A stretch of DNA of 64,000 bases, taken from assembly GCA_963681505.1 (NCBI GenBank), contig OY811983.1, positions 5,946,590 through 6,010,589 of the forward strand, in the 5' to 3' direction. The translations under genes were made by a program, and so were the position numbers. The notes under the pieces are model-generated. The model saw nothing but the letters and a program-made list of their open reading frames with translations, searched no databases and had not been told where the DNA came from. Positions within the stretch are counted from its first letter, which is position 1; each line of letters opens with the position of its first letter. This document shows positions 25,901-59,900 of this stretch, piece by piece. The DNA comes from Eunapius fragilis. Taxonomy: Eukaryota > Porifera > Demospongiae > Spongillida > Spongillidae.

Positions 25901-28900
25901 TCAATGCCCAGCACATCACAGGTTGCGTTTATTTTGTTGGGCACGGTGTATAGTTCGAAATGGAGTGCTATGAAGAGCTACGGGTGACGCATAGGATCGA
26001 GGTTTTGAACGATAGTATACGATTTACTAAGTTTATTGGTTATGGCTTAGCACATGCACGCTAAGACAATGGCACTAGATACCAGGCCCTATTTATTGCT
26101 GCTGTAGTGGTAGTCCACATGCATGCAGATTGGTGGGGTTTTTTTCATCCCTATTACAAGCTAATTAAGTTGATTGGGCTTGCTAGCATAGACTGCTGTA
26201 AATATGGCAGCCCAATGACTAATTTCAATAGTGTGTGTTTCACAATTATGTGAATATGAGGACACTTGTGATTGTAAGTCTATTTTTGTACAGCCTGGTT
26301 GTGAGTGGAACTCTTCCTTCGATTGCTCTTAGTCTGTCAGATAGGAAGGTCAAACAACTTGTGCAGGTATCAGTAGGGGAACTCCCTTTATTGATTTCGT
26401 TGTATTTTGTTATGGTGGTGATTGTTTTGTTCACCCACACTAGTTGGTTCGAAGTCTGCCCCTTCCTCCTCCTTCCCTTGCTTCAAAGTCTGCTGTACCT
26501 GTTATTGTAAGTTTGTTGAAACCCTTTATACGTGTGTGTGTGTGTGGGGGGGGACTCTTTAATCAGGCTATGTTCTGACATATTGTCATTTCTATCATTC
26601 ATACTATTATCAAAAACCTTCGTGTACTGTAAATGAATTTCTATGTACACTAGTATCCAAGGACAATGTACAACCCAGCAACAGTTTATATAATTATGTA
26701 TATTTGTATGGCATTAGTCGTGGTTACTGATATGCGATATTTTCGGTATCTTCAATATACATGCACATATTTAGGGTATAAGCATCACTGTGTACATGTA
26801 CATTGTACATAGTCCTGTTTTTGTATATGCTTGTGTGTGTGTGTTGGGGGGGGGGGGGGGAAGGGTGCCATTCTCATGTACCTGTGAGATAGCATGTCTT
26901 GAAAAACCATTGTGGGTACACACATGTGTATGCAACCCACTCCCTTCCCATACTCACACACATTCTCCTTTGTAACACAGCAGAACAAGGCCGCAGCTAT
27001 TTACCCCACTATCAGTACTGGCACTGTGATCTCCATGGTTGCCAGGAGTCCAACAGGCTCAGAGCAGGAGAGTGAGTGTTAGTGTGTAATGGTGGAGCAC
27101 ATTGTGTAGAGGTTTATGCTGTAGTGTCAGTGGTATGGTTTAAATCAAATATAAGTCATTATTATATATACATGTATACATCGCCTTTTCACACATGTAT
27201 ATACATGTATACATCGCCTTTTCACACATGTATATACATGTATACATCACCTTTTCACACAGCTGAATCTGATGAATCGGAATTTGAGACTGCAAGTGAG
27301 GGAGAAGAGGAAGATAGCCAGGAAAGAAAAAAGAAGAAAAGTAAGCGCACGAAAGAAGAGAAGAGTCTCAAGCAGCCAGACGATGGAGCTAAGATGGTTG
27401 AAGCCTCCAAAGAGTGTGTGGCCTCAGAGACACCTGATGTTTCTGCAACTACACTGAAATTACACTTTGCAATCAATGAGGTATGATTATCAGAGTGTGC
27501 ATCTTGAGACATCAAATCTCTGTTTTTGTGAAAGGAAATCAAGTTGTCTGTATAGCAAGGCTTTGCATCATATGTGTGTGTTTAACTACTCACCTGTATT
27601 TGTATTAAGAATCATTACAATGGCATTTCAATAAAGGTTTGTTTTGTTGGCATGACCTGCAAAATTATTAATATGTACAGATGGTCTATTGATTTGTTGT
27701 GTCTTCCAATTTTAATGGTTAACCTGTGCTGCATGCATTTTGCTTCCAGATTATTGTCGACTATTGCGAGTACATTGATGGAAAGGACGTGGAGAGGCTG
27801 AAGTTCCTCCTGAGTGAGATGGAGACAGAGGTGGTGATGAGAACTTGGGACTTGGGGGTGACTGCCTCCATTGGTAGTGCACAGATCCATGATCTATTTA
27901 ACAAGAGTGAGGGAGATACATGTGTATTTGAAATTGGGTGACTTTGGACTACCTTTTATGATTGTTATTTGTGGTAGGTACAGAACCTCACCTTCTGTTA
28001 ACATCAGGATCCAACCAACAGAAGCTTTTGAATTTCAAATACTCTAAGGTGGGGTGGAATTGGTGTACATGATTTCCGATCTCATGGGCTTACTTAACAG
28101 GGTGATCGACAGTCTCCACACTATGGCTCTAGTCCCCAGCCCACTGAACACTTGGTCATTGCAGACATGTCAATAGTGAAGGTTCATCTATTCAAAGGGT
28201 CCCTTTTCAAGCTGATGACCATGGGCCTCTGTATTATGGCTGAGATCAAGTGAGTACCTCATTTGCAGCTCTTTACCCTTGGTTACCATGCCCCTGAATG
28301 TATACAGCAGGTCTAATGATAAGCCATCAACGCACATTATTGCTAAGAAAAATAATATGATACCAGCAAATGAGGAAGGGAGGTCCAATAAATGTGAGTT
28401 AGTCCAACGTTTCTATACATGTAGCTGTTTAATGTATGTACGTTATCCTGTGAATACTTGGATAATCAGCTGCCAGAAGTCCTAGTCTTCCTGGTGAGAG
28501 GGAGGTGTACATTGAAGCCAAGTTTGGTGGTCTGGAGGTGACTGTTGGAGATGAACAAGGAGACATCCTGAGTGCTGATATGACAGGTATTGCATGTACA
28601 ATTTAAATTATTCATAATTAAAATTAAAAAAACAAAATTAGCAACTTGATTTAGAATGAAATAATACAATACCGCCCAAAATAATTAGTGACCAAATATT
28701 CAAAGATGTACGTGTATAAATGGTTACTGAATGAACATTACTAGTTAGTTCTTCAATATGTTAAACACTAACAGGTTATTAGTTTCAATTAATTTACTTT
28801 GGTGGTGAGTTATTGTATGGTGCATGGGGTCCAGAGGCTTTAAAGGCCCTCTCACAAGTAGCCACTCGTTTAGCCATTCGTGGGAATACCTCTAAATCTA

Positions 28901-31900
28901 TGGCATTGACTGACCTCTTTGGTCGCCTCAGTCACTCACTAATTAGAGCTAATGCTCGTGCCATTCTGAGTAGTTCCTACTCCCACCTGGTGCAGCAGGT
29001 GGATGAACTTTGCGTGTAATTTTTTGTATTGTGTGTGGTTATATACTGTATGTTTTAATTGTAGCTCAGGTTATAAAATTTTCACGATTGTTGAAGTTTA
29101 ATGATGAAATAGGTACACGTATTATTAATTGTAGTAATTAGTGATTGTTGTTCAGTTTACCTTAATTAATGTATTGGATGTCAAACCATGCCAATTTTTA
29201 ACAGCTAGATCATTGTTTTAATTGTTAATATTGGTTTCAACATATCCATCAAAAATTACTTATTGAACAAATTGTAATATGCACATGTTTAAGCATGCAT
29301 ATCTTTGTATCTGTGAACACTTCTGCCAAAAATCATGTAGTAGTTCCTAAATGTTGGTTGGCTGAGAAATCATTCACAGTTATGGAGATAAACATGATCC
29401 ATTTTTTAAAATGTGGGCGGGAGGAGGGGTGATTTTTTACAGTGGACAGTGTGTATAATGGAGCACATTCCATTGTTAATTAGGCTTGAATACAACAGTG
29501 GCTGTATTGGAGGAGTGTACTTTGGTGACCGCAAAGTATGTGGATGTATTACAGTGCTCTGTAAAGTATATGTTTGTGCATGCACACATGTATGGCATAC
29601 CCTCTCATTCCTGTATTGTTAATCTCCACTACTCTGGCTCTCCACAGTATGAATAATATTAGGGTTATTGACAAAGAAGCAACATATTATCCTAAGGTGA
29701 GTTGATATTGTACACTTCAGATTGCAAGGCCTATAGCATCAAATGCTAATATGCATCTTGTGTGTATCCTGGTACGTGTTGGAGTAGTGTGTTCATATAC
29801 ACCACACCCCATATCCTCTCAAAGTTGATTTCTTCTCTAGTACCTACTTTAAATCCAACAAATACAATTATAACTTATTACGAGATGCTTTGAAGTTGCC
29901 GATGGATAGTGGTGTCCTACTTGTGTGTACATGTACAACCAATTTTTGGGATTGTTTAAAGTAGAATAATCTCTGTACGCATTGGTGGTGTTTCTTTTAT
30001 GACACCAGGTTGTCAGTAAGATGGATGATTCAGCAATGATAATATCAGCACAGGTGTGTTCTTTTACTGTACATAAGAATTTTCTGCATAACATTACATG
30101 TATATGTATCTGTGGTTGGTAATTAGATCAAAATACTCAGAAAGGCTGCTGGAGGCATAAGTAGTGCAGATCTCTGTGTGTCGGCCACTGTTCAGAGACT
30201 TACAGTATACCTTGTGTTCAAGTTTGTGAACAGAGTGATGGTGAGTAGGTGTGGTATCCATGGAGAGTACAGTTATCTTTCACGTGTATTTAGGGTTATA
30301 TAAATGAGCTGATGGGAGAACTAAAATTAGCAAAGAAGAAACTTGGACTATCTGAGGAGAAGGCCTTGCCAAAATCAGTGAGGATCATTTGAGACCATAT
30401 GTGATGTGATACCAAATTTGCATCTACATGTATATCTAGGCCAAAATAAAAGATCCACTAGTGGAGGAGAATGGAAGTAAAATAGGACTTTCAGTTTCCA
30501 TCAGTGCTCCCTTGGTGGTGCTCCCTCTGACCTCTACCTCCTCCAGTGCCTTTGTGGCAGACCTTGGTCAGATGGAAGTCACCAACACATTTCTTCTTGC
30601 AGAGAAGGTAGCTGTTGGAGAGCAGCTCCCTTCTGAGAAGTATCTCTCATCTGGAGGTATTCCAGCCATTGTTGATGATATGACAATAGATATCACTTCA
30701 GTACAACTGTTCAAGTGAGTTCATACAGGAGTATGTTTCTTGCAGGTGCACATACATGTACGTGTATGTTTATCATTGCAAGTAGTTGTGCAAGCTACTG
30801 GAGGTATGTCTCTGATTTTAAACTGTAATTTTTCAGGATAAATAATGCAACGATGCTCAACACAAGTGATCGCAGCCACATGATCGTAACACCAATCAGA
30901 TTCCATGGTCATGTGATCCGCAAGCTTAGTGATTGGTGCAGTGTAGTTCCAGATATCAGTATTGATGCAGAGCTCCCTTCATTGGATGTCCAGCTAGGTT
31001 CTGGTGATTACAGTGCCATCTTGTCATTGGTGAATTCTTTGAGTGATGGTCAGCCCACCACACTCCCTTCCAACAAGAGTGAGGGAGAGGAGGATGTTAG
31101 ATCTGAAAGTAATGAAATGTTGGTACCTGTGAGCACCAAAGGTACTGATCCAAAGGATCCTGTGAAGCTGTTACTAAAATTTCAAATGAAAGAGGTGTGG
31201 TGGAGGAGCTTGACTTGAAGTGCACCTCACTCACATGCTTTGCATGTTTGTAGGTTGTCCTCCGCTTGAATGAGCAAAGTGATGGTGTGAAGAATGAGAG
31301 ACTGAAGTTCCTCCTGAGTGAGATGGAGACAGAGATGGTGATGGGGACTTGGGACTTGAGGGTGACTGCCTCCATTGGTAGTGCAGATGTCCTGGATTGC
31401 TTTAACAAAGGCAAGTGAGATTGCTGCACAGCGAGTTGAGTGGTGACCTACTGATGTGCTATGTAGATATTGAGGGGAAGAGTCACCTTTTGAGTTCAGG
31501 ATCTAAGGAGAGGAAGTTTCTGAGTACCATCTATTGCAAGGTGATGACACACAAATGTATGTTTTCAGCTCACATTCAGTTCTGTTTTTTTTTTCGAATC
31601 ATGCAGAATGATATACAGTCACCGTACTATGGTTTCAGTGCCCAGCCCACTGAGCAGTACATTAGTGCAGAGATGTCAGTAGTGAATGTCCTGTTACTGA
31701 AAGAGTCCCTTATCAAGCTGATACCCATGGGCCTTTCCATCATGGCCGAGATCAAGTGAGTGCCTCTTCCTTTCTCTGTGTGCATGTGAATACTTGTCTT
31801 GTCTTTGTGACACAATGTCCAGCAATCAGCCTTCAAAGGCAGGCGTTACAAAAGAGATTGCTTCGCAGAAAGAGAAGAGTAAAAAAAGTGCGTATGATAG

Positions 31901-34900
31901 TGCAGTATAGACTCCCATATACGGTATCAGGAAGTATTAATTGACATCCTAAATATATATTGCATTCCAATATCAGCTGTGAGAAAACACCTTCCTAATG
32001 AGAGGGAGATGTACATTGAAGCCAGGTTTGGTGGTCTGGAGGTGACCCTTGGAGATGAACACGGAGATATTCTTAGTGCTGATATGACAGGTATCAATTA
32101 TGATATATATAATCGGGCATATGGAGGTACGTGTGTATGTGTATGATGAAAGAATATGTGCCAAGTCATGCACCCATAACCAATGTATACCACTATCCGA
32201 CATGTTTTACAAGGGGTAAAATATGTGCATGTGCATGTATATTTTTTGCCAGGGTGTATGGTGTACTTTTACAAATTAATTGGCATTGTTGTTTCTTGTA
32301 TGGTCGAACAGACTTGAGCGTGACTGTAGCTATTCTTGAGCAGTGGACTACGGTGACCACAAGGTTTGTATGTACATGTATGTATGTGTGTATGCATGCG
32401 CGTGTGTGTTTGTGTGTGCATGTGTGTGTGTTTATACAAGTATTTGTTAACACTGGTGTGTGATCATGTATATATGTGCAAGTAAATGTTAGACATGTAT
32501 ATTTCCTTTTTCCACTGAATCTAGTATGAGGAACATTGCGATCACAGACAATGATCCGAATACCTGTCATCCTAAAGTGGGTTTTGCATTTAATTGTTTA
32601 TAGCCCTTACATTGTCACTGTTTTCATCTCCTCATAACTGTTATAATATGTTAAACTTCCATTTGCTACATCAAGGTTTTGAGTACCCAGGATGATTCAG
32701 CTACTGTGATATCAGCAGAGGTATGTATTTACCAACTCAATTATATTTTGCTGTTTGCATTTTGGTTTGCTAATTAGGTTAAAGTATTGAACAATGTTGA
32801 AAATAGTACCACGGACATTAGCAGTGCAGATCTCTGTGTATCAGCTACTGTGCAGAGACTAACAGTGTATCTTGTTTTCAAGTTTGTGAACAGAGTGATG
32901 GTGAGTGGGTGTTGGAGAGAACTGTCATCTTTCTAATGAATGTATATAGGGTTATGTAAATGAGCTGATGGGAGAACTAAAATTAGTAAAGAAGACACTT
33001 GGACTATCAGAAGAGAAAGTCTTGCCAAAAGCAGTGAGGATCATTTGTGGCCTGTGAGATATTGAGTTTACAAATGCATGTATATTTAGGCCAAATTACA
33101 AGATGTACAAGGGCAGAAGAATGGAAGTAAAATAGGACTTTCAGTTTCCATCAATGCTCCGTTGGTGGTCCTCCCTCTGACCTCTACCTCCTCCAGTGCC
33201 TTTGTGGCAGACCTTGGTCAGATGAAAGTCACCAACACATTTCTTCTTGCAGAGAAGGTATCTGTTGGACAGCAGCTCCCTTCTGAGAAGTATCTCTCAT
33301 CTGGAGGTATTCCAGCCATTGTTGATGATATGACAATAGATATCACTTCAGTACAACTGTTCAAGTGAGTCTATAGCTGTATGTACATACGCATTGAATA
33401 AGTTACTTGTGGGTACATGATGATGCATGTATGCGCATTCATATATCTGTTGTGCATTGTAATTGGCACTTTAACCCCTCAGGATAAATAATGCAACAAT
33501 AGATCGCCATCACATGATCATAACACCTATCAAGTTCCATGGTCATGTGATCCGCAAGCTTAGTGATTGGTGCAATGTAGTTCCAGATATCAGTATTGAT
33601 GCAGAGCTCCCTTCATTGGATATCCAGCTAGGTCCAGGTGACTACAGTGCCATCTTGTCAGTGGTGAACTCTTTGAGTGATGGTCGACCCACCGCACCTC
33701 CTGCTGATATGGAAGTGGGTGACGATGGTAGGGAGAAGGGAGTTACAGAGGAGAAAGGATCGAACAGTAAAGAACTAGAGATGCTCTCTGATACCAAAAG
33801 TGACGTACGGAGTCATGTGCAGTTATCAGTGAAGTTTCATATGCAGAAGGTACCTTTCAGGATCTTTCCCTCAACATTTGTATCATGCAGTTACATTTTA
33901 GGTAATTATTCATTTGAATGAACAATGTGATGGTGTGAACATTGAGAGACTGAAGTTCCTCCTGAGTGAGATGACAACGGAAGTGATGATGAGGACTTGG
34001 GACATAAGCGTGACCACCTCCATTGGTAGTGCACAAATCTATGATCTCTTTGCCAAGAGTGAGCTGTAGACATGTACATTGTAGATATGTATGTACATGT
34101 ACATGTACATGTACATGTAGCTGTAGATGCATAATTGAAGGAGTTATGTTTGAAGCGCGGTGCCTTTTTTGTGTGTCTAGGTATTGAGCAGAAGCCTCAC
34201 ATTCTGTTGTGTTCTGGATCGGATGAAGGTAGTTTTCTGACTGCAAAATACTGCAAGGTTTGTTTACAGATATTACTATCCATTGGTATATAACATAGGG
34301 ACCACCCAGTGCCATACCTTTCTAAATAACCAATTGCACAGTTTACATCATAATCATAATTTGCAATATTACATCTGTCCCTCTCATTGATACTGTTTTA
34401 TTTCAGTAATGCATAACAGATAGACTAGAGGCTCAACATACTGAGCCATGTGGTGTGGTAATTTGGCATGTTGCAGTATGCCCACAATTACTGGTTGCCA
34501 AATGCCGCAATTTGTTTCCTCAGCATGGTCTTTAGCATTGGTGTTATTTCTTGATGTTGAGTACCTTGTGGACATAGAACATCAAATATGGCAGCAGAAT
34601 TATAACCAAGATCTGTCAGCAATGCTTGAGGAACTATGCTATCATTCCAGTTAGTAACTTCTTGACACTGTCAGTTTTCTCGTCCCAGAACTAGATACAC
34701 CTTGGGCCATTTAGTAGGAAATCTTGGAGGACAACTATATTTATTTCTTTGGCTGGTTACTGGAATTTCCAGCTCGATGATTAGGAATGGTCTTTCTACA
34801 GGAATCAGAGAAAGGTAGGGCTTGCTACTTGTACCCTTCCTGTGGCAGCAACACATTCTGGACAGGACTTCCAAAACCAGAGTATACATGTTCTCAACCA

Positions 34901-37900
34901 CCATTCCTGGAGGACTGGTTGTACATTCAGGCATCAGTGAAGTAGTGGCGGACTGGGGGGGGGGGGGGGGGATCTTAAATGTGATTTTAATTAATGCATG
35001 TTATTTTATTGTGCGCATCGCTGTTTAACGGAGGTCGGCCTATATGGGACTTCACTGATCAGTGTACACACGTTGTGCATAGATGCCAGCCCTACGCACC
35101 TACGCATTGATCCTCTATTATCCTAACTTTTTTCACTTGTGGCACGTGTATCCTGTCATCAATCATCAAAAAGTGTGCTATTGTAAAGTGTAGCTGTTAT
35201 TTATACTTAAAATGTCAAAATGATCAGTTTAGAAGTACAGGTATTTGAGCAACAAGATGGTTGCTGCTGATCACCAATCTGCATGTTGGGTGTTTGATTA
35301 GTTAAGATTCAGTGCACAATTGGCTTTGATACAGTGCATGTGTCATCGATATTGTACTATGTTTGTCGGTTATAATTAATGCTGTTAACGTTAATTCTTT
35401 TTGCACAAGATACGTATATGAACACTGTACAGTATATAACATTTGTAATTACCTGTGCCCATCGACACGCTTCAGTGTCAATAGCATCCTCAGCCAGACC
35501 GCCACCATGCAGTTTGTACATCGTGATGGTCACCCTTCATTATAAATACTAGCCACATACTTATCCTGTACGCTTCACCTTTACTACTGCAAATATCTAA
35601 CATAAGCGTTGCCACTGCATGTATCTGTCAGCTTCAGTCTGTTTGGCTAGATGTTAATTAATTACTATAATGAATTACTTGTCACTTGCATACCTTTTTC
35701 TTAGGGAACATCTTATTCGGTGTTGATTGTTAAAATTGAAGTTCCCCTTCAGATAATCCAAGGACAAACGATATCGGTATAAATACTTAAAAAGTACTTT
35801 TTAAAAAAGTTAGGCTTTATATATTACTATAATTATTTACCTAGACGCTGTGGCACAAACACAATGCAACAATGTATAGGCGGAAACACCAAAGGTACAT
35901 TATAAATTGACCAGCTAGCTCCTATTTCTGGACTCTCTCGTTCAGCAATTTAATACTTGTTTCAGAGACAAGCAGTGCAGTTTGTGGGCCAAGCCTTATT
36001 CCTTCCTATATTAAACACCCACATGGTAGTTCTTATTTAGAACTTGATGCTATATACATGGACGATCTCCAGATTCCCTTGAACAGGAGTTATCTCCATG
36101 AACATGCATGGGGAGAAGACAAGCCAATACACCTGGCAATGCATGTATCCAAACATCATACTGAAATATCATCTCAGTTCTGTTTTTGACTTCGTAAAAT
36201 CTAGTGGTATGAAGAGAGCAAACTACTCGTTGAAATACATCAAAATGCCATCTTGAAGCTCAATGGGAGAAGATAAATTTAGTGCACTTATACTGATGTA
36301 CGAACACCAAACACTATGATTGAGAATTGGACATCGTGAGTATTATAGAAACATATGCAAAAAGACAACCAAGAAATATGTTATTGCTTGACCCACTGGC
36401 ATTAAACCAAGCATTACTTAAATTACCTTACACATTTGCTGACCAAATTGATTTTTTCATTGATACTCTAGTGTGCCAAAAAAAATTAAAAAAATATTAA
36501 CAATGCACGTGCGCATGTGCAGTTTGCGTGACTGGCAATATGTCAGTGAAAGTATAAAATGAATGAATCAAAAATCCTTTCGGCTGCAGCTTTATAATGT
36601 GGAACTATAGTATGACACACATTGGGTCAGGGAACGAGACTAAGGCGAGAGTGGTCTGGGATACCCTTCAGTAAAGTAGGTTTTTTTCAACTTGCAATTC
36701 TCCTGAGCCTTCTCCCCAGACCCTAATGGAGGAGCTTACAGCGCTTCCCCGTACTCCCTAGCTGGAGTGGGCACATGCCCCCTTTCCTACCTTCTCCCCA
36801 GACCCTAATGGAGGAGCTTACAGCGCTTCCCCGTGCTCCCTAGCTGGAGTGGGCACATGCCCCCTTTCCTACCCTCGGCATAATACACCTCCCCCCTAAC
36901 TCAAAATCCTGGTCCGCATTTTTTTTAGTTTTCAGTCATCCTTTGCAATAATGGTGCTTTTTTACCTCAAGATTTTAAAAAGTAAAACTGTTATTTCAGC
37001 TGATATAGTAATCATACACCATGCGCCCCATTGGCAGATGAAATGAATTGAGCTCTATCAGATCGACTGTTGCCATTTTTTTTAGCCCGAGCCTCAAGAA
37101 AATACCAACACAGCAGCATACCTATCCTCGTGTGTAATATCTGATTCTTTATGCAGCAGTTAATTTGGCTCCAGGCATGCTTGCTTAGATAATATATAAG
37201 TTAGTTACCAGTAATTGGTTAAATTATTATCCCCAGCGTGGCGAGTCAACTTGAAGCATGGCAGTCAAAAACATGAAAAAAAGGAAACATTGCAAATTAC
37301 ATGTAAGCTGCAAACGAAAGTATGAGCTTGAAGTTATGCATGAATTATTAAATGCCGCGTATACACATTCTCAGTGCTGAAGTGGCAGCAAGATATCTAC
37401 TCTTTTATTTCTGGTAAACTAACAGGCATTCTTGCCATGGTTTACCTTTTAGATGTCCTGGCAATTGGAGTAGCTTATCTGACTCGGACCATCCAGCTAA
37501 GGTAAATAGTCATCAAGGAGTACATTACATGAATCACCATAAAACAACTAGATGGGAGGAGCTTTACCAATGTGTTTAGTAGTCACCCCAGCTGCAGGGC
37601 AGGATGGAGTGGTACGTGATGACACAATTGACACAGAACTGGGAGGCGAGCAGTTGTTTGCTACTCCTTGTGCTCCAGCAAGCTGTCTCTTGAGAGACTT
37701 AATATCATCTTTCACACTGCCCATCAATAGAGTCAAACTGCTGCAGCTAGGCATAGTTAGCACTCCACACTGCACTCACTTCTCTCTTGTCTTTAGGTGA
37801 GTTGTACGTCTTCAATACTGCCAGCTTCTTGTACACAATTGGCTTGCTCTTGGGCCTCCATATCCCCATGTTTTCAGTACCCTCATTCATTACTGCCTCT

Positions 37901-40900
37901 GTGTCAGCTTGGTGCTTGGGTAGAACTCCTTCGACCTTCTGCAGCAGAAGGTACACAGGTTTGCCTTCGTCTGCTTCCTTGAGCGAACAAACATTTGTGG
38001 TTTGTACTCCATCTCTGGTAAGTCTATAGCTGATGCCTTTGTTGCTAGCTGCAATGCCATGGCCAACTGTAAGAGTTACAGTACTGTGAGGCACTTTTGA
38101 GTTCAACAAAAAGGTTGATTGTCAAGTACATGGCTCTTGCACGTAAACTTTTTCACTTGGCATCCCAAACAAGTGACAATGGAAACATATCTACTAGCTT
38201 AGGCTGGGTAAGGACCCTAAGTTATGATGGATTCCAATACATCTTTGTGTAACTCCACTGTAACAGGACTACCCTATCGCCATGTCTCTCCCTTTCTTAT
38301 TAATTGAAAAAATAATAATAATCAAGTAATACATTCCATCATAATCTGCAATGTCACAATCTATCAGTTACTTTCACCAGTTTTTATACTTTTATGAGCT
38401 AATTACTTATTACCTTGTGCAGGATGATCCACAGTCTCCAGGCTATTGTTCTAGTCCCCAGCCCACTGAGCAGTTTGTTAATGCAGACTTATCCGTAGTG
38501 AAGGTCTGCATATTGCAAGAGTCCCTTGTCAAGGTCATATCCATGGGTCTCTCCATTATGCAAGAGATCAAGTGAGTGTCTCATTTTTTTATAGCTTGCT
38601 GACATACATCTTGCTTTATCCATGATTGTCCAGGATAAGCAGTCAATCTCCAAGCACTACTACAAATGTTACCTTGCCACCAAGGGCAGAAGAGACCAAG
38701 ATAGGTATTGTTAAAGTATAGACCTCAAGGTAACCATCATACTTAGGGTAAATTGTACACGTACAGCAGTTGTGAGACAACACCTTCCTGGTGAGAGAGA
38801 GGTATACATTGAAGCCAGGTTTGGTGGCCTGGAGGTGACCTTTGGAGATATCCTGAGTGCTGATATGACAGGTAATGTACATGGATTGTATAAATTGCAT
38901 TAGAATTTGCAGTGCTATAAAGGAAAAGAATTTATGAGATGCATATAGTGTGTCTTATTGCTTAATTTAGCCATATTAACATGTCTCTTGAGCTTAATTA
39001 TGAGCCCACCACAGTAGTATTATGTATTGATGAAGGATCCATTTATCCCGTTCCTATATAAATGCACATACATTTACATTTAGTTTGTTCATGTAGAATG
39101 GGTTGCACTCCAATGATTAATCTGTTAGTTATTTATACACTGTGATGTATATGTACAGTTGATGTTGATTTAAGTGTATTCTTTATTTTAACTTTACAGG
39201 CTTGAATATAGCAATAACTGTATCGGAGAAATGTACAATGGTGACCGCAAGGTATGTGAGCAAATACATTGAGCACAAGTGTGATTGAGGTATTATAGCG
39301 ATTGGTTTTGTGATGGAAGTGGAATTGGATCAGCATGTGTTATATGGGGAGTGTGATGCACTGGGGCTGAATTAGCGAGGAGCGTATTCCTCTTAGTGTA
39401 TGTGATGCAGGTCTCTGTCTCTTTAGTATGAAGAACATAGCAGTGTTTGATAAGGACCCAAGTAGCTGTCACTCAAAAGTGAGCTGAAATTACTTGTACA
39501 CATCTGTCATAACCATTTTGTCTTGCTCTGATCTTTTTCATATATATTCCATCTTACGTGTTCAGGTTGTTAGCAAGATGGATGATTCAGCAACTGTGAT
39601 ATCAACTCAGGTGTGTTTTTCTGTTCATGAAATTTTATAATGTACAGTCATCTTCTGTGATGGTTAATAATAGATCGAAGTATTGAAGAATGTAGTGAAG
39701 ACTACTGTGGACATTAACAGTGCAGATCTCTGTGTATCAGCCACTGTGCAGAGAATAACAGTGTACCTTGTGTTCAAGTTTTTGAACAGTGTGATGGTGA
39801 GTGGGTGTGGTTATCCCACAGAGTAGGTATGAGTACAGCCATCTTTCACGTGTGTATATAGAATTATGTAAATGAACTGATGGGAGAACTAAAATTAGTA
39901 AAGAAGACACTAGGACTATCTGAAGAGAAGGCCTTGCCAAAAGCAGTGAGGATCATTTATGACCATATGTGATTTGATACCGATTTTACATCTACATGTA
40001 TATCTAGGCCAAACTACAGGGTGCACAAGAGGAGAAGAATGGAAGTAAAATAAAACTTTCAGTTTCCATCAATGCTCCCTTGGTGGTCCTCCCTCTGACC
40101 TCTACCTCCTCCAGTGCCTTTGTGGCAGACCTTGGTCAGATGGAAGTCACCAACACATTTCTTCTTGCAGAGAAGGTAGCTGTTGGACAGCAGCTCCCTT
40201 CTGAGAAGTATCTCTCATCTGGAGGTATTCCAGCCATTGTTGATGATATGACAATAGACATCACTTCAGTGCAACTGTTCAGGTCAGTCCATACACTGCA
40301 TTAAGTATGGAGTATGTTCTTGCTAGTGCGCATGTGTGTATGTTTATCAGGTAGTTGTGCAAGCTACTGGAGGTATGTCTCTGATTTTTAAATGCAATTC
40401 TTCAGGATAAATAATGCAACGATGCTCAACACAAGTGAACGCAGTCACATGATTGTAACACCAATAAAATTCCATGGTCGTGTGATCCGCAAGCTTAGTG
40501 ATTGGTGCAGTGTGGTTCCAGATATCAGTATTGATGCAGAGCTCCCTTCTTTGGATATCCAGCTAGGTCCTGGTGACTACAGTGCCATCTTGTCATTGGT
40601 GAACTCTTTGAGTGATGGTCAGCCCACCACACTCCCTTCCAACAAGAGTGAGGGAGAGGAGGATGTTAGATCTGAAAGTAATGAAATGTTGGTACCTGTG
40701 AGCACCAAAGGTACTGATCCAAAGGATCCTGTGAAGCTATTACTAAAATTTCAAATGAAAGAGGTGCGGTGGAGGAGCTTGACTTGAAGTACACCTCACT
40801 CATGCTTTGCATGTTTGTAGGTTGTCCTCCGCTTGAATGAGCAAAGTGATGGTGTGAAGAATGAGAGACTGAAGTTCCTCCTGAGTGAGATGGAGACAGA

Positions 40901-42100: not shown

Positions 42101-42139
<39 letters not shown>

Positions 42140-42182
42140 ATGTATGTATGTATGTATGTATGAATGTATGTATGTATGTATG

Positions 42183-42213
<31 letters not shown>

Positions 42214-42227
42214 TGTATGTATGTATG

Positions 42228-42258
<31 letters not shown>

Positions 42259-44907: not shown

Positions 44908-44973
<66 letters not shown>

Positions 44974-47900: not shown

Positions 47901-50900
47901 GATGGATTAAATCTGGTTTTGAACCCAGTTTTAAGACTCAAGAAACACTCATACACTTCTGAAGGGAGCTCATCCCATTTCTGAACACCTGCAAATGAGA
48001 AGTACTCTGACTGACTAGTACATGTATACACATATTTTGTGTATGCGCAACACACATGTCATTGACATTGCAACTGAACATATGCTAGTGGCAATACCTA
48101 AATTCCAAGAAGGAGGTGGACCTTCTGAATTAAGTGCAGCATTTAAAGTTGTGATGAGTCTTGAAACACCAGAAAGAGTTGGGTACTTTTCACCTTCAAA
48201 GAATACAGAAATTTCTCTCAGTGGTTTCAGTGATTGGCACTACAAATAGAACATCCTTTATACATGGACATACATTACTCAGAAAACATGCATTATCATC
48301 CTCGCTTGTAAAAATGCATAAGCTTATCATGCATGTTAAGCATGATACAGTATAGTCTAACCAATTTGTTTGCAGACATCCACTGTTCCTCAGTTGGTAC
48401 AGGAAGTATGTTGAATTCTTTACATATGCACTTCTTTTATGAAAGGCTTCAATTTAATACACCTCTCCAACATGTAATGCGTAGAATTCCAACGTGTGAC
48501 AATGTCTTCTATCACAGTTAGAGCAGTAGCAGAATGAGGGGAAAGAACTGGTTCTACTTGGACATCTATAAAAAATTAATACATGTCAAATAATACTACA
48601 GAACATTACATTTACCTTCATTACTGTCATTGATGATTTCCATAATATCCTTATCAGCTTTGATCTTTTCCTTTTGTAACCTTTTGAGGTGCTCTAACCG
48701 TTGAGAGCTGTTACGGATTGCATTTGTGATGTCCCGGAAAAGATGAATGAATTCCCGAGTAGCATGATCAGGAATCTAAACATTTGACGTACCATATGGA
48801 CTCCAGTTGCAACACGCTATAATAATAAAGTAACCTTTGTTTTGCATGGATCAAGACTGAATGTATGACAGGCACACACTGGGTTCTCTTCTGTCACATC
48901 TTCATCCAGCAGTTGCTGAACTGCTGCTTTGAAATTTGTACCATTGTCTGTGGTAATGCTGTCCAATCTGGTACCCATCTGATATTGCATCTCACTACAC
49001 TCTTTGAGCAATGTGGCAATGTTTTCTGCTGTGTGGGACTCTGTGCAAAACATAATACACACGCACAATTCAATGGAATCAAGAAAAATATATATCTATG
49101 TCAGATACATTGTATATATGCATACCATTGTCAACAGACACAGCCAGCACAGCTGATAACAATTTCCAACTGCATTTCACCAGTTATAAGTTCTGCCCAG
49201 TGTACATGTGTGGCACTCGATCAATCCAATGCCCTGTCACTGCAACATAAGATTCTCCAGTATGGGCTGTAGCACCATCACCAACAGGGGTGACAGTTGT
49301 AGTGCTTCCACAGCCAGGAGTTGATAAATTTGGAACCGCTGGGATGAATCGCACCCTTGGCAGCACTGTCATTAGGCTTGGTCAATACGCCGCTCTTTCT
49401 TTTCTTCAAAGCAGGTGGTTCTTCTGAAACTTCTGCAGAATCGGCACAATCAATTATAAGTGTTTCTTCAGACAGTTCCGCGGCAGGACTCAGGCCAAAC
49501 CCAGCAGACATTGACTCAGAAGTGAGATTTCAGGAGGAAACGAGAGCACACTAGAAAGCTAAAGCCAATTGCATTGAGCATCTATATATCTACAGCGTGA
49601 CTCACAAAACTAAAATCCAAGCACCAAATGAAATCCAAGCAACAAAATCCAACCCACAAAATCCAACCCACAAAATCCAAGCAACGAGTAATTATATTTG
49701 CATAATCAGTTAAGTATATTATATTCTTTACCCGGCAGGAAACCGGTGTCGGAGTACCTCTTATTATCAAATTGTCGCTTCGGATGTATGAATACAGCAT
49801 TGTGTCCAGTCTCACAGGTTCCCAGTCCTCGGTCATCCAATAAATTTTCTTCATGGCCGACTGGCAGTTGACCGCCAAAATTTTTGGCTGTCCACAGTTA
49901 TTACCTCAATAAGGCTGACAGTTAAGTGGTTTCGTGAACTAATTCAATTATCCACTTTTCCTGACGGTCACGGACGCGGTCAAGCCAACCGTATCATCTA
50001 TTTTGACGGTTGGCGGGCAAACCGCGGCATCACTGCCTACAGCATGGTCTTTAGTATGAATAAGCAGTGGTGTTAAGTTTCTTCATGTGGACATCAAGCA
50101 TCAAATGTGGCACCGTATTATAACCACTGTCTTTCAGCAATGCTTCAGGAACTGCATATAACGACAGTATCTTCCACTGTCTTTCAGCAATGCTTCAGGA
50201 ACTGCATATAACGACAGTATCTTTTCAGTTGGTGGCATCATGACAGTCAGTTTTCTCGTCCCAGAACTAGATACACCTTGGGCCATTTAGTTAGGTAATC
50301 TTGGAGGACAACTATATTTATTTCTTTGGCTGGTTACTGGAATTTCCAGCTCGATGATTAGGAATGGTCTTTCTACAGGAATCAGAGAAAGGTAGGGCTT
50401 GCTACACTGTAGGTCACACCCCTCCTGAACATTCTGGACAGGACTTCCAAAACTTAACAATATCAGAGTATACATATTCTCGACCACCATTTACTGGAGA
50501 GCTGGTTGTACATCAGGGCATCAGTGAAGTGACCACCAAAGTTCCCTCCATAGCACTAGTCAGTAACCATCTGTAGTTGCTTAGGAAGTAACCACTCCCT
50601 GCATGTCCACGATTCTTACATCCACCAAGTACAGTACATCATCCACCATGCTGAATAATGGACTTGCATTGCCATCTTGTGAACTTCCTTCTGATCGGGT
50701 GGGAGCACATTCTGCTTCAGGAGGATGCTTGGATCCGTTGTTGCTCTTCTTTAGAGGTCACTGCTCACCGACAATGGGACTTGGCGCTAGTGTTTGTTTC
50801 CGGTGTGAACTACTGTAGCCTAGACTTCCATGTCAACCTCTCTACTAGCTGTGTGAGAGTTACTTCTTAACCATAATTAATGTTTAGCACAGTGGAAAAA

Positions 50901-53900
50901 CATGATCTGATGACTAGTAATGGCTGCAAAAAGTTGTCATTGTTGGTTCTTCATAGGAATACCATAAGCCACTACTAAGATCATGTTCATTTTTGAATAC
51001 ATATACCGGTATACATGCTGGTATTAATACATAATTAATGGCTGTATGTATTAATACAGACATACCTCATCACTTGAGATAGCACATTAATAGTAAAGCC
51101 AAATAGACCAGAAGGGAATTTCTGATGTTTTGAATACCTCAGTAATAAAACAAAAGGAGACATTACAAAATTTGCGAATTAAAACCCTCATGAATGTGTA
51201 TCTGTACATAATGTATTCCTTCATAATGGTTTCAACACTGTAAATCTCAGGCTAGGTCTGCATGCATTTCCAAACAACAGGATTTGAAATATGCCATCTT
51301 ATGAATGTCATCACAATATTGAGTCCTGTTCGAGAGTGCTTAATTATCAACTTTCTATACATACCTTCTCAGCAATAGACATAGTCATTGAGGTTCCATT
51401 TTGAGTGCAGGAGCATTGTGGGCCACCACAGGGTGCATTACATTTCACTTATACTTTATGTAATAGTACTTCGTTACATCAAAATCTTAAAAGTCTATCA
51501 AAACTGTTATTCATCATACACCATGTGCCCCATTGGCTGATGAAGTGAAACGCGCTCAACAGATCGACTGTTGCCTTTTTTGTTTAGCCTGTGCCAATAC
51601 AACACTGCAGCATTATTTTCCTATAGTGTAATATCTGATCCTTTATGCAGCAGTTTATCTGGCTTTAGACATGCTTGTACGTTACTAACCAGTAATTGGT
51701 TAAAATATTATCCCCAGTGTGATGAGTCGACTTGAAGCTTGGCTGTTGAAAATACTAAGGAAACATTGCGATTTAGCTTCCGGCAAGAGTATCAGCTTGA
51801 AATCATCTACACATAAATTATTATGCATCATATACACATTCTCATGCTGAAATGGCAGCAACATACACTTTTATTTGGTCAGCTAACAGGCATTATACCT
51901 TCGCTGTGTCTCGGCAATTGGGAGTAGCTTATCTGACTCGGACCATCCAGCTAAGGTAAATAGTCATCAAGGAGTACATTACATGAATCACCATAAAACA
52001 ACTAGATGGGAGGAGCTTTATCAATGTGTTTAGTAGTCAATCCAGCTGCAGGGCAGGATGGAGTGGTACGTGATGACACAATTGACACAGAACTGGGAGG
52101 CGAGCAGTTGTTTGCTACTCCTTGTGCTGCAGCAAGCTGTCTCTTGAGAGACTTAATATCTTCTTTCACACTGCCCGTCAATAGAGTCAAACTCTTGCAG
52201 CTAGGCACATTAGCACTCCACACTGTACTCAACCGTTCCTGGCAATCTGCACTTACTTCTCTCTTATCTTGTCTTTAGGAAGGCTGTATGTAAGTCTTCA
52301 ATCTATGTATACTCGGTGTGGGTGCCTCTTCAAGGAAAATTCCTTCGACCTCCTGCAACAGAAGGTACACAGGTTTGCCTTCGTCTGCTTCCTTGAGTGA
52401 ACATTTTGCAGTTTGTATTTCATCCCTGGTAAGTCTGTAGCAGACATCTTTGTTGCAAGCTGCAAAGCCATGGTCAATTGTATGAGTTACAATACTGTGA
52501 GGCACTTTTGAGTTCAACGGAAAGGTTGATTCTCAAGTACATGGCTTTTGCACGTCAATTTTCTTTCAGCATCCCAAAAGAGTTGTCAATGGAAATGTAT
52601 CTAGTAGCTTAGGCTGGGTAAGGACCCTAAGCTGCTATGACGGGGTCCAATACATCTTGGTGGTAACTCCACTGTAACATAAGATCACTGTATCGCCACG
52701 TTTGTCTATCTGTCTTACTAACTGATAACAAGAAGCAAGTACGTACATTACATCATAATCACAATCGTAAAAGTTACTTTCATGAATGGAATGTGCAAAC
52801 TCTTTATATTTCAAATTGTGTTTCATAATGATTTCTCAGAGTGGTAAGTTTGGCAATGAGTAATAATGACACATCACTACTCCCATGAAGTGGTGAACTA
52901 CTAATTACTTCTTAACCTTGTGCAGGATGATCCACAGTCTCCAGGCTATAGTTCCAGTTCCCAGCCCACTGAGCAGTTCGTTAATGCAGACTTATCAGTA
53001 GTGAAGGTCTGCATATTGCAAGAGTCCTTTGTCAAGGTCATATCCATGGGTCTCTCCATTATGCAAGAGATCAAGTGAGTGTCTCATTTTTTTATACATA
53101 CATCTTGCTTTATTCATGATTGTCCAGGATAAGCAGTCAATCTCCAAGCACTACTACAAATGTTACCTTGCCATCAGGGGCAGGAGAGACCAAGAAAGGT
53201 ATTGTTAAAGTATAAACCTCAAGGTAACCATCATACTTAGGATAACTTGTACACGTACAGCAGTTGTGAGACAACACCTTCCTGGTGAGAGAGAGTTATA
53301 CATCGATGCCAGGTTTGGTGGCCTGGAGGTGACCCTTGGAGATGAACATGGAGATATCCTTAGTGCTGATATGACAGGTACATAATTGTCATGTGCATGT
53401 TTCTATACAGTGTTCAATGTAGACCTTTGCATGCATGCCGAAAGAATGTCTATGAATAATACTTGCATATAATTTGATCAAACACCTTACCTTTTCTGTG
53501 CAGGCTTTAGTTCAACAGTGTCTGTTATGGAGGAAGCAACAATAGTGACAGCAAGGTGTGTGAGGGTTGGATGTTTGGGTTGAAATGTGTGAGGGCAAGG
53601 TATGGTTGTGTGATGTACTAGTACATGTACATGCTTTCTACATTTGCAGTATGAATGACATTATGGTAACTGACAAGAGTCCAGCCAACTGTTATCCAAT
53701 GGTGAGTTGGCATGTTGTTTTGAAATGAGGTAGTTTAGGATTATGCATCGACTATGGTTTGCATTAGGGTATGAACTTCCCAATGGACATATTATGATCC
53801 ACATATTCATACTGCTTTCTGGGTCTTGCTTAATTACCTGAAGAGTTTAGGACCATCACAGATCTTGCATTAAGTGTGGTACATGTCTGGAGATTGATGA

Positions 53901-56900
53901 TTATCTTCTGACTTCCATTTTTTGGAACACAAAACCAAAAAGAAAGCTTTCCTATTGATGAATTGTTTGGCGTGCTCTTTAAAATGAATAACAAAAGTAT
54001 GTAAACATCACACCTGCATTTAAACTGCGTACGTGTGCTAGCCTTAATTTTCTATAGCACCAAATTCACAAGTAGGGATGCTGTTGTGCCTTTCTATCAT
54101 ATGTATAGGTAATAGTATAGGTAATAGTACCTAGAAGAGTTCGACTACAGGGACACATAATCAGATTCAAAGAATACACAGCTTTTTAATATCAAGTTTA
54201 AAATACAAAGTGTTTGATATTTAGATACTGTGCCAGCTGGTTTTGCATCCCAAAGAAGGTCATGCATGGGCGATCGGGGTCTCATAATTCAATTGTGTTT
54301 AAGTCAAAACTTTGTTCCACGAATTTGCTCTTCCTGGTGTTTCATATGTCAATGTAAATTTAGCAATGCCATACATGTAATTAACAGTTGTGTCGTTGCT
54401 GGATGGTTGAGTACTTCAACACACCAGTATGCATTCCATACATGCAATTTGCATGCAGACATCTAAAAAAAACATTTATATGTTAAGTATGTATGCTTGC
54501 TATCAGCTGTCCTATTGGTGTGTTACGTTGAACCCTCTCTTCAATCAGGTTGCTATTAAAATGGATAAATCAGCAACAGTATTATCAACAAAGGTACCCT
54601 TTCTCAGTGCCATATTCTGAATAACGTTTTGTTCATCCTCTGGTGGGAAAATAGGTTGTATTAATTAAAGATCCTACTGTGGACATTAACAGTGCAGATC
54701 TCTGTGTGTCAGCCACTGTGCAGAGACTAACAGTGTATTTTGTGTTCAAGTTTGTGAATAGAGTGATGGTGAGTGGGTGTGGTTATCCTTGGAGAGTACA
54801 GTCATCTTTCACATGTGTGTATAGGATTACGTAAATGTGCTGATGGGAGAACTTAAATTAGCAAAGAAGACATTAGGATTATCTGAAGAGAAGGCCATGC
54901 CAAAATCAGTGAGGATCATTTATGACCATATGTGATGTTGATTAATTCTCATTTATATGTAGGCCAAATTACAAGATGCACAAGAGGAGAAGAATGGAAG
55001 TAAAATAAGACTTTCAGTTTCCATCAGTGCTCCCTTGGTGGTCCTCCCTCTGACCTCTACCTCCTCCAGTGCCTTTGTGGCAGACCTTGGTCAGATGAAA
55101 GTCACCAACACATTTCTTCTTGCAGAGAAGGTATCTGTTGGACAGCAGCTCCCTCCTGAGAAGTATCTCTCATCTGGAGGTATTCCAGCCATTGTTGATG
55201 ATATGACAATAGACATCACTTCAGTACAACTGTTCAAGTGAGCTCATTAAAGAGTTTGTACTAGTAGATCTGTATTTTTGACTAAAAAACAAACGTTAAT
55301 GGCAAAATAGGGTAGAAAACGCAAGGCAATTGAAGATTGAAGAGCTAAATTACACGGTTGTAAAGCCTGTCCAGTTCCATGGTCACGTGATCCGCAAGCT
55401 TAGTGATTGGTGCAATGTAGTTCCAGATATCAGTATTGATGCAGAGCTCCCTTCATTGGATATCCAGCTAGGTCCTGGTGACTACAGTGCCATCTTGTCT
55501 TTGATGAACTCTTTGAGTGATGGTCGGCCCACCACGCCTCCTGCTGATAAGGGAGAAGGTGGCAGTGTTGAGGACAGAAGTAGGGAATCGGAAGAACCCT
55601 CTGATATGAGGGACGATACTTCACGTGATTATGTGAATCTGTTACTGAAGTTTCAAATCAAAGAGGTGGATTTGAATACCACTGATTGTAATTGTACTAA
55701 TCCTTTATTATATTTTTGCTTAGGTTGTCCTCCATTTGAATGAAAAAAGTGAGCGGGGTAATATTGAGAAACTGAAACTCCTCTTGAGTAAGATGGAGAC
55801 AGAGGTGATGATGAGAAATTTGGACCTGAGGGTGTCTGCTTCGGTTGGAAGTGCTGTGGTCCAAGATTACTTTAACAGAGGTGAGCAGAAAGATGTTTGC
55901 TTTATCACTGAATGAGAAAGTAATGTTTGCATTGAAGACACCCAGAAAGTGCCCCACCTTCTATTGAGTTGGGGATCAGAGGGAGAAAAGGTTTTGAATG
56001 CCAAATATTGCAAGGTATGCTTGCTTTTAATATGATTCACCGATACATTTAATAGCGTTGTAAGTATTCTAATTGATCCTCATCTATTTGCAGCAGCTAG
56101 AGTAAGAATGGGTACATCCAAAGCTGGTGTTTTATTTAGGTTGTGTGAATTTAGGTCACTGTCAAATTAGGTTCAGTCATGGGGTGGGGTTAGTACTTAT
56201 GAATGTAATACATTGCATATGATGCAGAGGTAATTTTATTCTAGAACCATCGACACACGCCTTACATTGGCTCGGTGTCCCTGCCTGTTGAGCAGTCTGT
56301 TAGTGCCACCATGTCAGTGGTGAACGTCTGGCTTTTGGTTGACTCTGGTGAATGTTTGTTTAACATCCTGAAATCCATCATGGCTGAAATCAGGTACAGT
56401 ACACATGCATGTAGCGCACGATCGGAAGTTATTTTCAAAGAGGGCTTGCAATGAACTTGCATGCAAAATCGATGTAGGGCATTTACTGCACCATTACATG
56501 CAATTGTATTGAAGAAATGTAACTACAAATTAGCAAAGACAATTTCTCCATGTTTTAGTACTTTATTGAAGCTCCCAACATTCCCCGCCCCTCCCCCACA
56601 CATTTTTCAAAGAATGTGTCATACTTACACATTTTAATATATAGTTGAGTTGATTATAGCATGATATTCTGTTGTTGACATGATAAATTCATTTGCACTG
56701 CGTTACGTGTAATTTGAGAGTATCATGTACATGTGAGCTTATTAAAAAGAAGGAACAGTTCCTGTGCTATAACAATTTGCTACACATTGCATCTTATCAT
56801 TGCATGCGTAACACACGTACTCACCATGCCTACATCTCTATCATCTCTTCAATCAGTTCTGTGGAACAAAACCGGCAGCCTGTGACTACAGTGCCCAGCA

Positions 56901-59900
56901 CCACAACACGTATGTTGCATATTCATATTTTATTAGTTGCAATTGAAGCTTGTACTTACATGCACATACTCTTCATATGTCATTATGTAATGTTTCAGTG
57001 TTACAATACTGTGTATGTTTTATATTAAGTGCACAGTGAAACTGTGTATTTGCATAATATTAAGTCAGTTTATAATTGATTAGAGACAAATGACAAAAAC
57101 TATTTATCAGTCATGAATGAACCATTCATTGTACTTCAGAGCACAACAAGGTGGTGGCAGGGACAACTAGTATTAGTGGAGGGTATGAGCTGTTTCATGT
57201 TACTGCTGCCCTGGACCGAGTTGAAGTAAAGATATATGAAGCTGCTGTACAGGTACAGTGAGGTTATTGGTTGTGTCATTTGAATAAAATCAATTGACTT
57301 TGGCAGGAAGTGTTTGCATACAAATACCTAAGTTTATCGAAATGTCATTGTATAACATTTATGAGTAGGGTGTTTGTAATGTAGGCTTAGATGTGCTGAA
57401 CAGATTAAGGGGTATTAAATGCTTATGTCCTGTGTGGACACTTATGTATTGCCAGGATACATCAACGTCGGAGAGGGTATCTTGTATACTGGCAAGCCTT
57501 TCGGTAGTAGGGTTGAAGGCATCTGTCTCAACACGTGACAATGGTGCAATGGAGGCAGAATTATTCATGGACAACTTCACACTGGATGATGATAGACCAG
57601 GGACCACAGGGATACGCCAGTGAGTGTGCTCTAAGGTTTGGGGCAAATATCCTGCATTGCTTGCATAGCAATTATTAATACATGTACATATGTACCTTAG
57701 GATGGACTAGTCAAGTCACAAAGTATTTAAAACTTTAGTGTGACTATTAATGTGTGCATGATTATGATGGAAAGTGGATTGCAAACCTCTCTTGTCATGT
57801 AGAGCTGTACTAAAGTCTGAGCGTCTAGAAGAGGGAGAATCAAAGGCGATGGTTCATGTGACCTACATGTCTTCAGCTAAGAATGAGCAGTCTGTGGTTG
57901 CAGAGGTGGACGGAGTGCAGGTGCTAGTCAACCTTCCCTTCATTCTGAAACTAGTGAACTTTTTTGCGGCTGCCCTAAAGCCACTAAGTGTGGGAGTAGT
58001 GAAGGATGACGCTGCTGAGGTTATTGATGAGTCAGCAGTCAGTGGAACTGAAATCACAACTGAAAGTGGGCAGCACCAAATGAAGATCTCTGTAACTGTG
58101 ACCAGGCCATGTATCGCCCTTATTGAGACACCTGGCATTCCTGATCCCAAGATACTAGTCCTTGAGGTCCGGAGTATTTCTCCATTGCATTTTAGATGTA
58201 ACTGCATATGTGACAACATAAAATGGAGGATGGTTATTAGTCTTGTATTGTTAAAAGAGCCATAATGTTTTGACTTTACTTTGTCTTGCTCCTCCCCCCT
58301 TTAATACTTCTGCACTAGATGGTTGTCAGTGTTGACCTGGAGCAGAAAACGGAGTGCTGGAATTTAGGTGCAACTGTTAAAGCACTGCATGTAGCGTCAA
58401 CTAATTACATGTCTCTTGGCCATACTGAGGTGAATATTGCTTGTGTGAACATATGTAAAGTACGTATTGTTTGCCTTGTCTGCTATATTTTATTGCCACA
58501 CAGTTGTAAAACTAGTACCATGTGAAGTATCACTTGGAAGTACTTCTGGTCTGTATTAATAGAAATTGTTTTTTCTCTGTTTATGTTGCATGTATAATTT
58601 TTATATGAGAACTAAAATTTCTAACACTTGTCTGATATAATTGGAGCTGACAGTAATAACATTGATATGTCATGTTTTTTAATACGTATTTTCCAGATTA
58701 ATTTAATAATGAATGATCTGCATTTCGCCTTTCTTGTTATTGTGATTAACTCCATTCTAATACGCATCTTTTAATGCACCCAGGTTTATCAATTCCTACA
58801 CTTTTAATCTATGAAGATGATAAGTGTCCTTCAGTTGTAGATTTCAAAGAAACACTGCAGCAAGGTTTAACTAGCAGAACATTTAAATTAATATTCACTG
58901 ATAGCTTTGCTACAAATTTACGTAATTGAATCACTGGCCATCATTAAAACGGCTTGAAAACGATATATTTGTCATTACAATAGCAAGTAACTTTGTACTC
59001 CAAAACCAAAACCTAATGCACAAGTAGTTCCTTCATTTGGAACTTAAGTATTGAGTATTAGTGCTTGTATTCTCAGTTTTTTAATGTTTATATATTTTGA
59101 AATGTATAATTTCAAAAACACAGGCATATACCCGAGTTCTGGCTCCAGCACCAATGATCACAGCTTCATTGAGTTCAACTGGCAATCACTGTGTCACTGT
59201 TCCCTCCTTGTTACTTACTGTGTCACCAGCAACTGTTCGGCTCATCCTAAATGTTGCTAGATCTCTCCAACAAGAACAGGTAGGTAAATTGTTAGGTAAT
59301 TTCTCACACTGAAAATGTGTTCAGTTGGCATTATGGCCATATGGTTTAATGTCTGTGTTTATTGTTTGCTATCTGTACAATACTACAAAAAATCAAAATC
59401 AATACTTATGTTGTACATGTATGCCTACTGTGGAAGAGGGGGGGGGGGTTTGATATTATGTTGTACATGTACATTATGCATACTGTGCATGCAGTTCCAT
59501 TTATTATGTATAACACATTTACTTGAATCTATGCTTGCCTTTCAATCCTTCATTAGCATGTTGAAGAAGATCTTCCACCAAGTGCACCAGCAGATCTCTT
59601 TAGCAAGAAGGAAGTGGACAAGACAAAGTGGTATTTTCAGCCAAATTGTAAGCAAATGCATACATTTAAATCAGGAACTACGTTAGTAGTTCCTATATAG
59701 GAATTGACCCGGGTCGTGAAATCTTTTTAAAAACGCAACCCGCGTATAACTCGCATACCAAGAAATGGGTAGTTAGCTCTTTGTTGCTATCGATGTGATA
59801 TATTATATAAAATCCTGAAACAGTAAAGAATTCTCACTCGTATCACTGTAACAGACATAACATTTTCTTATGCAAATGTACATGTGTACTGTAAGTATAC

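Follow-up and report, generated by a model that had tools for sequence, protein, structure and literature searches.

A VPS13A/C-type gene of the sponge Eunapius fragilis with six tandem copies of the RBG5-6-7 block

Can the rod of a VPS13 lipid-transfer protein be lengthened by repeating one of its parts in frame? The question was raised by a 64,000 nucleotide stretch of Eunapius fragilis DNA (the window; bases 5946590–6010589 of contig OY811983.1, here C13, 7.35 Mb, in an assembly of 219 Mb and 24 contigs), in which a sequence-only reading had described a 12-exon cassette amplified six-fold, with a partial seventh copy, inside a VPS13 gene (gene A). The window was analysed together with 20 kb of sequence before it and 100 kb after it. 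With a probability of about 0.72, gene A encodes a VPS13A/C-type lipid bridge of ∼5,900 residues in which repeating beta-groove (RBG) modules 5-6-7 occur six times, with an extra RBG5, the array changing by unequal exchange.

A DNA repeat search detected direct repeats at the cassette spacing throughout 27.7–56 kb. The protein of the second cassette (U2, here A2) was built by hand by writing out its 12 exons, and spliced alignment of this protein identified six cassettes, A1–A6 (U1–U6), between 27750 and 55665, each with 12 exons in identical order (Table 1). All six are open, each has a length that is a multiple of three, and together they add 3,091 codons, the total that had been proposed. 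The lengths put forward for e1 (157 bp), e3 (149 bp), e10 (84 bp) and e11 (275 bp) were recovered in all six cassettes; that of e8, given as 45 bp in every copy, was obtained in five of the six, with e8 and e9 of A6 aligned as 58 and 98 bp. A simple gene-finding hidden Markov model (HMM), which tends to over-predict small exons, gave 45 and 114 bp in A6, and 45 bp in every copy is therefore probably right. Because the aligner accepts GT/GC-AG introns only, canonical splice sites do not count as separate evidence. In gene A, the cassettes have 11 introns each, the shortest of 49 bp and the longest of 6.1 kb. As described, the seventh copy is indeed only a part of a cassette, supplying 128 residues (e1–e3), after which the sequence is collinear with the post-block part of other VPS13s. 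A complete but diverged RBG5-7 block was rejected at this position, the stretch behind e3 being only 12–18% identical to the cassettes (e5–e11), 59% identical to the stretch after the last cassette in the sponge Ephydatia muelleri and collinear with VPS13A behind the block.

Gene A extends beyond the window, from a chorein exon at 7343 to the VPS13 C-terminal region at ∼79106. Its model of 5,921 residues consists of 887 residues N-terminal to the array, 3,091 from the six cassettes, 128 from the incomplete seventh copy and 1,815 C-terminal to these, all of which would be spliced into one product and form one rod. That this is a VPS13 gene, as proposed, was confirmed by Pfam matches to VPS13_N (E = 1.9e-171), VPS13_M (E = 3.3e-16 for the A2 protein, over the gathering score, and E = 2.1e-23 in the part behind the array), VPS13_VAB (E = 6.4e-27, coded past the end of the window) and VPS13_C (E = 5.2e-11); the C-terminal region also matches VPS13A chain 9yg5 (1310–1481). 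The N-terminal part aligned to the Ephydatia model P0003 with 644 of 879 residues identical and without a stop (spliced alignment). Among the matches listed, the best animal matches of the gene were VPS13A, VPS13A-like and VPS13C, and the A2 protein matched human VPS13C with E = 1.7e-41. Judged by its closest relatives, gene A is of the VPS13A/C type, not VPS13B or VPS13D.

The A2 protein aligns to both duplicated blocks of VPS13C, at 932–1377 and 1456–1943. The duplicated block in VPS13C and VPS13D is RBG5-6-7, doubled independently in each, giving 15 RBG in VPS13C and in VPS13D compared with 12 in VPS13A (Levine 2022, PMC7613979). The gene, the array and the identification of each cassette as RBG5-6-7, a known block of which VPS13A has one copy and VPS13C two, are all solid; the amplified block is thus the one that VPS13C has once more than VPS13A, as had been suggested, and the six cassettes represent five extra full copies relative to VPS13A. 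The predicted fold of the second Ephydatia cassette (mean predicted local distance difference test score, pLDDT, 71.6) has three units, each with five strands and one helix, at residues 2–129, 167–302 and 328–471, and then a disordered tail. By exon, e1–e3 match RBG5, e5–e10 match RBG6, e11 and the front of e12 match RBG7, and the tail of e12 is a linker. The best solved matches to this fold were BLTP1/LPD-3 (top) and a Vps13 fragment; the cryo-electron microscopy (cryo-EM) chains of VPS13C and VPS13A were not among the matches listed in the fold searches. The alternating hydrophobic pattern of the lipid groove is kept, in 12–14 of 14 strands, in all ten cassettes of the window and of the neighbouring gene B (below), with a mean alternation of 1.85 vs 0.00 (standard deviation 0.16) in 500 shuffles.

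Counted by collinearity, RBG1–4, 18 modules of the cassettes, the additional RBG5 and RBG8–12 give 28, and gene A would thus have ∼28 RBG modules in one rod. One source gives a rod of ∼22 nm for 12 RBG (PMC13036008) and another ∼30 nm for VPS13C (PMC13430412); at ∼1.8–2.0 nm per RBG, the gene A rod would measure ∼50–56 nm. Bridge-like lipid transfer proteins have 6 to 17 RBG according to a review (PMC12066543). A longer lipid conduit is the best reading of the array, and is the natural inference by analogy with a family whose rod is built of RBG modules.

Table 1. Coordinates of gene A features in the window (position 1 is the first base of the window).
Feature	Position	Strand	Basis
N-terminal part, chorein/VPS13_N, RBG1-4 by homology; 887 residues, 33 modelled exons	7343..27480	+	spliced alignment
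Candidate FFAT-like motif EFETASE, acidic stretch directly before the array	27280..27300	+	
Cassette 1 (A1), RBG5-6-7, 12 exons	27750..31194	+	spliced alignment
Cassette 2 (A2), 12 exons, 519 codons, one GC-AG intron after e1	31254..33849	+	
Cassette 3 (A3), 12 exons, second intron 4.2 kb	33902..40763	+	
Cassette 4 (A4), 12 exons	40821..43671	+	
Cassette 5 (A5), 12 exons	43729..46398	+	
Cassette 6 (A6), 12 exons, second intron 6.1 kb	46451..55665	+	
Partial cassette 7 (A7), e1-e3 only, one RBG5	55724..56427	+	
Post-array part, RBG8 onward by collinearity; VAB and C-terminal parts outside the window, to ~79106	56857..64000	+	
e11 of A1, homogenised exon (RBG7)	30440..30714	+	
e11 of A2, homogenised exon (RBG7)	33090..33364	+	
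e11 of A3, homogenised exon (RBG7)	40008..40282	+	
e11 of A4, homogenised exon (RBG7)	42931..43205	+	
e11 of A5, homogenised exon (RBG7)	45639..45913	+	
e11 of A6, homogenised exon (RBG7)	54963..55237	+	

The motif EFETASE is FFAT-like by a motif rule, and we take it to be a candidate VAP-binding site only. It is also present in Ephydatia proteins. The FFAT motif of human VPS13 sits at the equivalent place, before RBG5 (PMC13036008). Tandem repeats were observed in the N-terminal part of gene A, namely a 31-bp minisatellite (8541–9386; 27 copies, 99% matches), ∼1 kb of CCTCCTTCCTCCCTAC-like pyrimidine repeats in an intron (12838–13874; 66 copies, one strand all-pyrimidine, GC skew −0.64) and a 41-bp repeat in an intron (24726–25219; 12 copies). 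Within the array, intron 2 is long in cassettes 3 and 6 (34258–38422 and 46777–52925), and these two introns have common blocks that are 81–90% identical, with unrelated inserts between them, which fits an origin of A6 from an A3-like copy that was followed by more insertions. On the minus strand, at 47295–47882, the cassette 6 intron also contains an open stretch that matches the hAT transposase dimerisation domain of Pfam (E = 1.9e-13). A 78-codon open stretch without a Pfam match in the large intron 5 of cassette 1 (28783–29016) is possibly a mobile-element remnant.

A second VPS13 gene (gene B) was located 0.75 kb downstream of gene A on the same strand, outside the window, where homologous pieces (tblastn) extend from 79855 to ∼139960 in extended window coordinates (C13:6026444–6086549). 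Its array has four close cassettes (90913–109171) and a fifth that begins like the array and then diverges, and gene B would have 24 RBG modules if the fifth copy is complete. The VPS13_N match of gene B is equivalent to that of gene A (E = 1.8e-172). The N-terminal part of gene B is ∼72% identical to gene A (592/819) and 70% to Ephydatia, and that of gene A is 73% identical to Ephydatia; these identities are similar, and genes A and B therefore separated at about the time of the split from Ephydatia. The N-terminal model of gene B contains one in-frame stop if guided by Ephydatia and none if guided by gene A, the C-terminal model contains two stops in a region where 119001–124000 (extended window coordinates) reads N, and the VAB domain was found as homologous pieces only (tblastn). 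When the A2 protein was compared with the 219 Mb genome, at least 74 matches were obtained, all on C13 within genes A and B.

The related-species comparison showed the same kind of array in Ephydatia muelleri, where the models P0001 and P0002 hold five full cassettes, all different, together with the beginning of a sixth; over 60 residues, this beginning is 60–73% identical to the other cassette starts. The Ephydatia models (Em0227g1a, Em0016g797a and EMCRGX_G020849) are like gene A in this array and differ in being partial, with 1,906–1,989 residues and cassettes 61–70% identical to those of the window; one named record is annotated as a hypothetical protein. To survey other species, 184 proteins listed from three protein searches (the best 120 of 621 and of 245 in two of them) were scored with a cassette HMM. 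With the cut-off applied, and among the matches listed, one block was counted in 171 of the 184 proteins, two in ten and none in three, the two-block proteins being two Ephydatia models and eight proteins of ∼3,700 residues, of which seven carry the name VPS13C. These block counts err on the low side: BLAST finds three cassettes in P0001, one of which is split in the HMM match. The survey consisted of the best matches of longer lists, and rare long VPS13s elsewhere may therefore be missed; no sponge besides Ephydatia was named among the matches listed.

Comparison with known systems places the array beside several partial likenesses. Vertebrate VPS13C is alike in being of the VPS13A/C type with RBG5-6-7 in tandem and differs in having two blocks, from a duplication of separate origin; a cryo-EM paper describes it as 13 RBG plus caps (PMC13430412). 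VPS13A, a coral VPS13A-like protein and yeast Vps13 resemble gene A in N- and C-terminal architecture but have one block only, the coral protein (P0004) being collinear with both ends of gene A; VPS13A and yeast Vps13 have 12 RBG each (PMC7613979). In VPS13D, RBG5-7 was doubled independently to give 15 RBG (PMC7613979), and only one VPS13D was among the matches listed in the cassette search (E = 1.3e-4). PfVPS13L1 of Plasmodium falciparum, with 5,988 residues, is a polypeptide about as long as that of gene A, but its description gives 12 RBG in a rod of ∼22 nm, the surplus length being flexible stretches (PMC13036008). BLTP1 (Tweek, Csf1, LPD-3), the best fold match, has the RBG fold in common with the cassette and belongs to a different family.

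In a tree of whole cassettes, vertebrate VPS13C copies 1 and 2 grouped with vertebrate VPS13A, while the sponge cassettes formed their own clade (support 0.998 with P0013). The sponge amplification is therefore independent of the VPS13C duplication, and a common origin of the two was rejected. In a tree of e1–e10, the first cassettes A1, B1 and Em1 grouped together (0.955) and A2–A6, B2–B4 and Em2–EmY grouped by gene or species, which suggests an old first cassette and internal cassettes grown separately later. P0013, a JGI record of 1,783 residues, is a sponge-like VPS13A/C protein that has a complete RBG5-7 block plus another without its first part; it could represent an early stage of the array.

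The RBG7 exons provided evidence of how the array may change. Over 45 pairs from ten cassettes, the median synonymous divergence (dS) within a gene was 0.045 for e11 compared with 0.60 for e1–e9, and that between genes 0.100 compared with 0.75, and e11 identity was 94–99% in 14 tabulated pairs. The near-identity tract consists of the e11 core and the e12 front, with the intervening intron 11 ∼50–60% identical (windows examined, four pairs); between genes, the e11 core and e12 front are 88–100% identical in most 40-base steps. The e12 tail of a gene A cassette (k) is linked to the e1–e9 type of the next one (k+1): by dS, one combination is common to A1/A2, A3/A4 and A4/A5, and a second to A2/A3 and A5/A6. 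Gene B shows like behaviour by dS of e12 in B1 and B2 and of e1–e9 in B2 and B3. These linked types are the pattern that unequal exchange in the e11–e12 zone would leave, and the homogenised exons suggest a route for copy-number change with the frame intact. As the cassettes have common intron phases and whole codon numbers, such exchange would keep the frame and alter length only.

By homology, the N-terminal end of the gene A protein would lie on the donor membrane (endoplasmic reticulum), the VAB and C-terminal domains would bind the acceptor membrane and lipids would travel along a single hydrophobic groove. The array would grow and shrink by unequal exchange among copies inside the homogenised RBG7 exons, a mechanism to which the sequence pattern points.

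A number of observations weigh against this reading. The single-cassette fold, in which the three expected modules were seen, is from Ephydatia and not from the window, and its residues 131–160, 306–323 and 477–528 have a pLDDT below 50; its fold matches have low TM-scores (0.36 and 0.20, by query) and a high root-mean-square deviation. The prediction for two consecutive cassettes, made from a three-row alignment, has a mean pLDDT of 27 and is unusable, so that a continuous groove over the cassette joint rests on homology. The gene A model outside the cassettes is approximate. A tree of e5–e11 does not group A1, B1 and Em1, which leaves the case for an ancestral first cassette a moderate one. 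Intron 11 is diverged, though plain gene conversion might carry the intron along. Finally, nonsynonymous divergence (dN) and dS of e11 are about equal within genes (0.047 and 0.045), and e11 thus shows no recent protein-level constraint.

Neutral growth is a serious rival, and falls only somewhat short of an even chance. The array would then have arisen incidentally, by unequal crossing-over at RBG7 exons that are nearly identical, and be tolerated since all products remain in frame, the extra length having no adaptive role at a wide contact. The exchange signature in e11 and the e12 front, the separate expansion of internal cassettes in gene A, gene B and Ephydatia, and the different copy numbers (6 + 1 partial in gene A, 4 + 1 in gene B) all agree with it, but the old cassettes are still open, with dN/dS near 0.4 in e1–e9, and a many-copy array has been kept in two genes and in a second sponge. 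An adaptive proposal, offered tentatively and with a little less confidence, is that VPS13 in sponges is a length-evolvable bridge, with genes of ∼28 and ∼24 RBG, the RBG7 exons as a shared exchange site that would keep the copies compatible and allow in-frame changes of length, and a rod length that would probably vary between individuals, tuned to an unusually wide contact.

It is unlikely that the copies act as splicing cassettes, mutually skipped to give bridges of varied length without a single all-copy protein. Lengths in multiples of three and matching phases mean that skipping a whole cassette keeps the frame, and the Ephydatia models P0001 and P0003 differ in content, but these differences may be annotation errors. 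Purifying selection at the nucleotide level, on an RNA element, in place of exchange as the cause of e11 near-identity, appears less probable again. In its favour, both tracts are exonic and end at a divergent intron; against it, columns fixed within species and different between species number 2/91 in e11 and 2/70 in the e12 front vs 0/273 in e1–e9, and fixed differences between genes A and B number 0/92 in e11. Such species-fixed columns are a mark of concerted evolution, though the counts are small (1/28 in e10). Exchange templated by spliced cDNA and not by genomic DNA, which is slightly more doubtful still, would explain why homogenisation affects both exons and spares the intron that separates them, but introns are present in all copies, and exon-limited conversion blocked by divergent introns gives an identical pattern. 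An assembly artefact, with misassembly making many copies out of one or two real cassettes, is very improbable: A2, A4 and A5 are mutually close (88–94% protein identity), but the cassettes differ in exons, intron lengths and linked types, the six-fold match pattern sits within the 7.35 Mb contig, and Ephydatia models from other assemblies show their own five full cassettes and start of a sixth.

A VPS13 array of this copy number was not found in a limited literature search, and its absence from print is not claimed. If true, ∼28 RBG modules would be about twice the largest number named for a VPS13 (15) and well above the bridge-like top of 17. A VPS13 of ∼28 RBG beside a sister of ∼24 RBG would make contact width and lipid transfer testable against bridge length in one cell, and the array offers a concrete route by which the length of a lipid bridge may change in frame.

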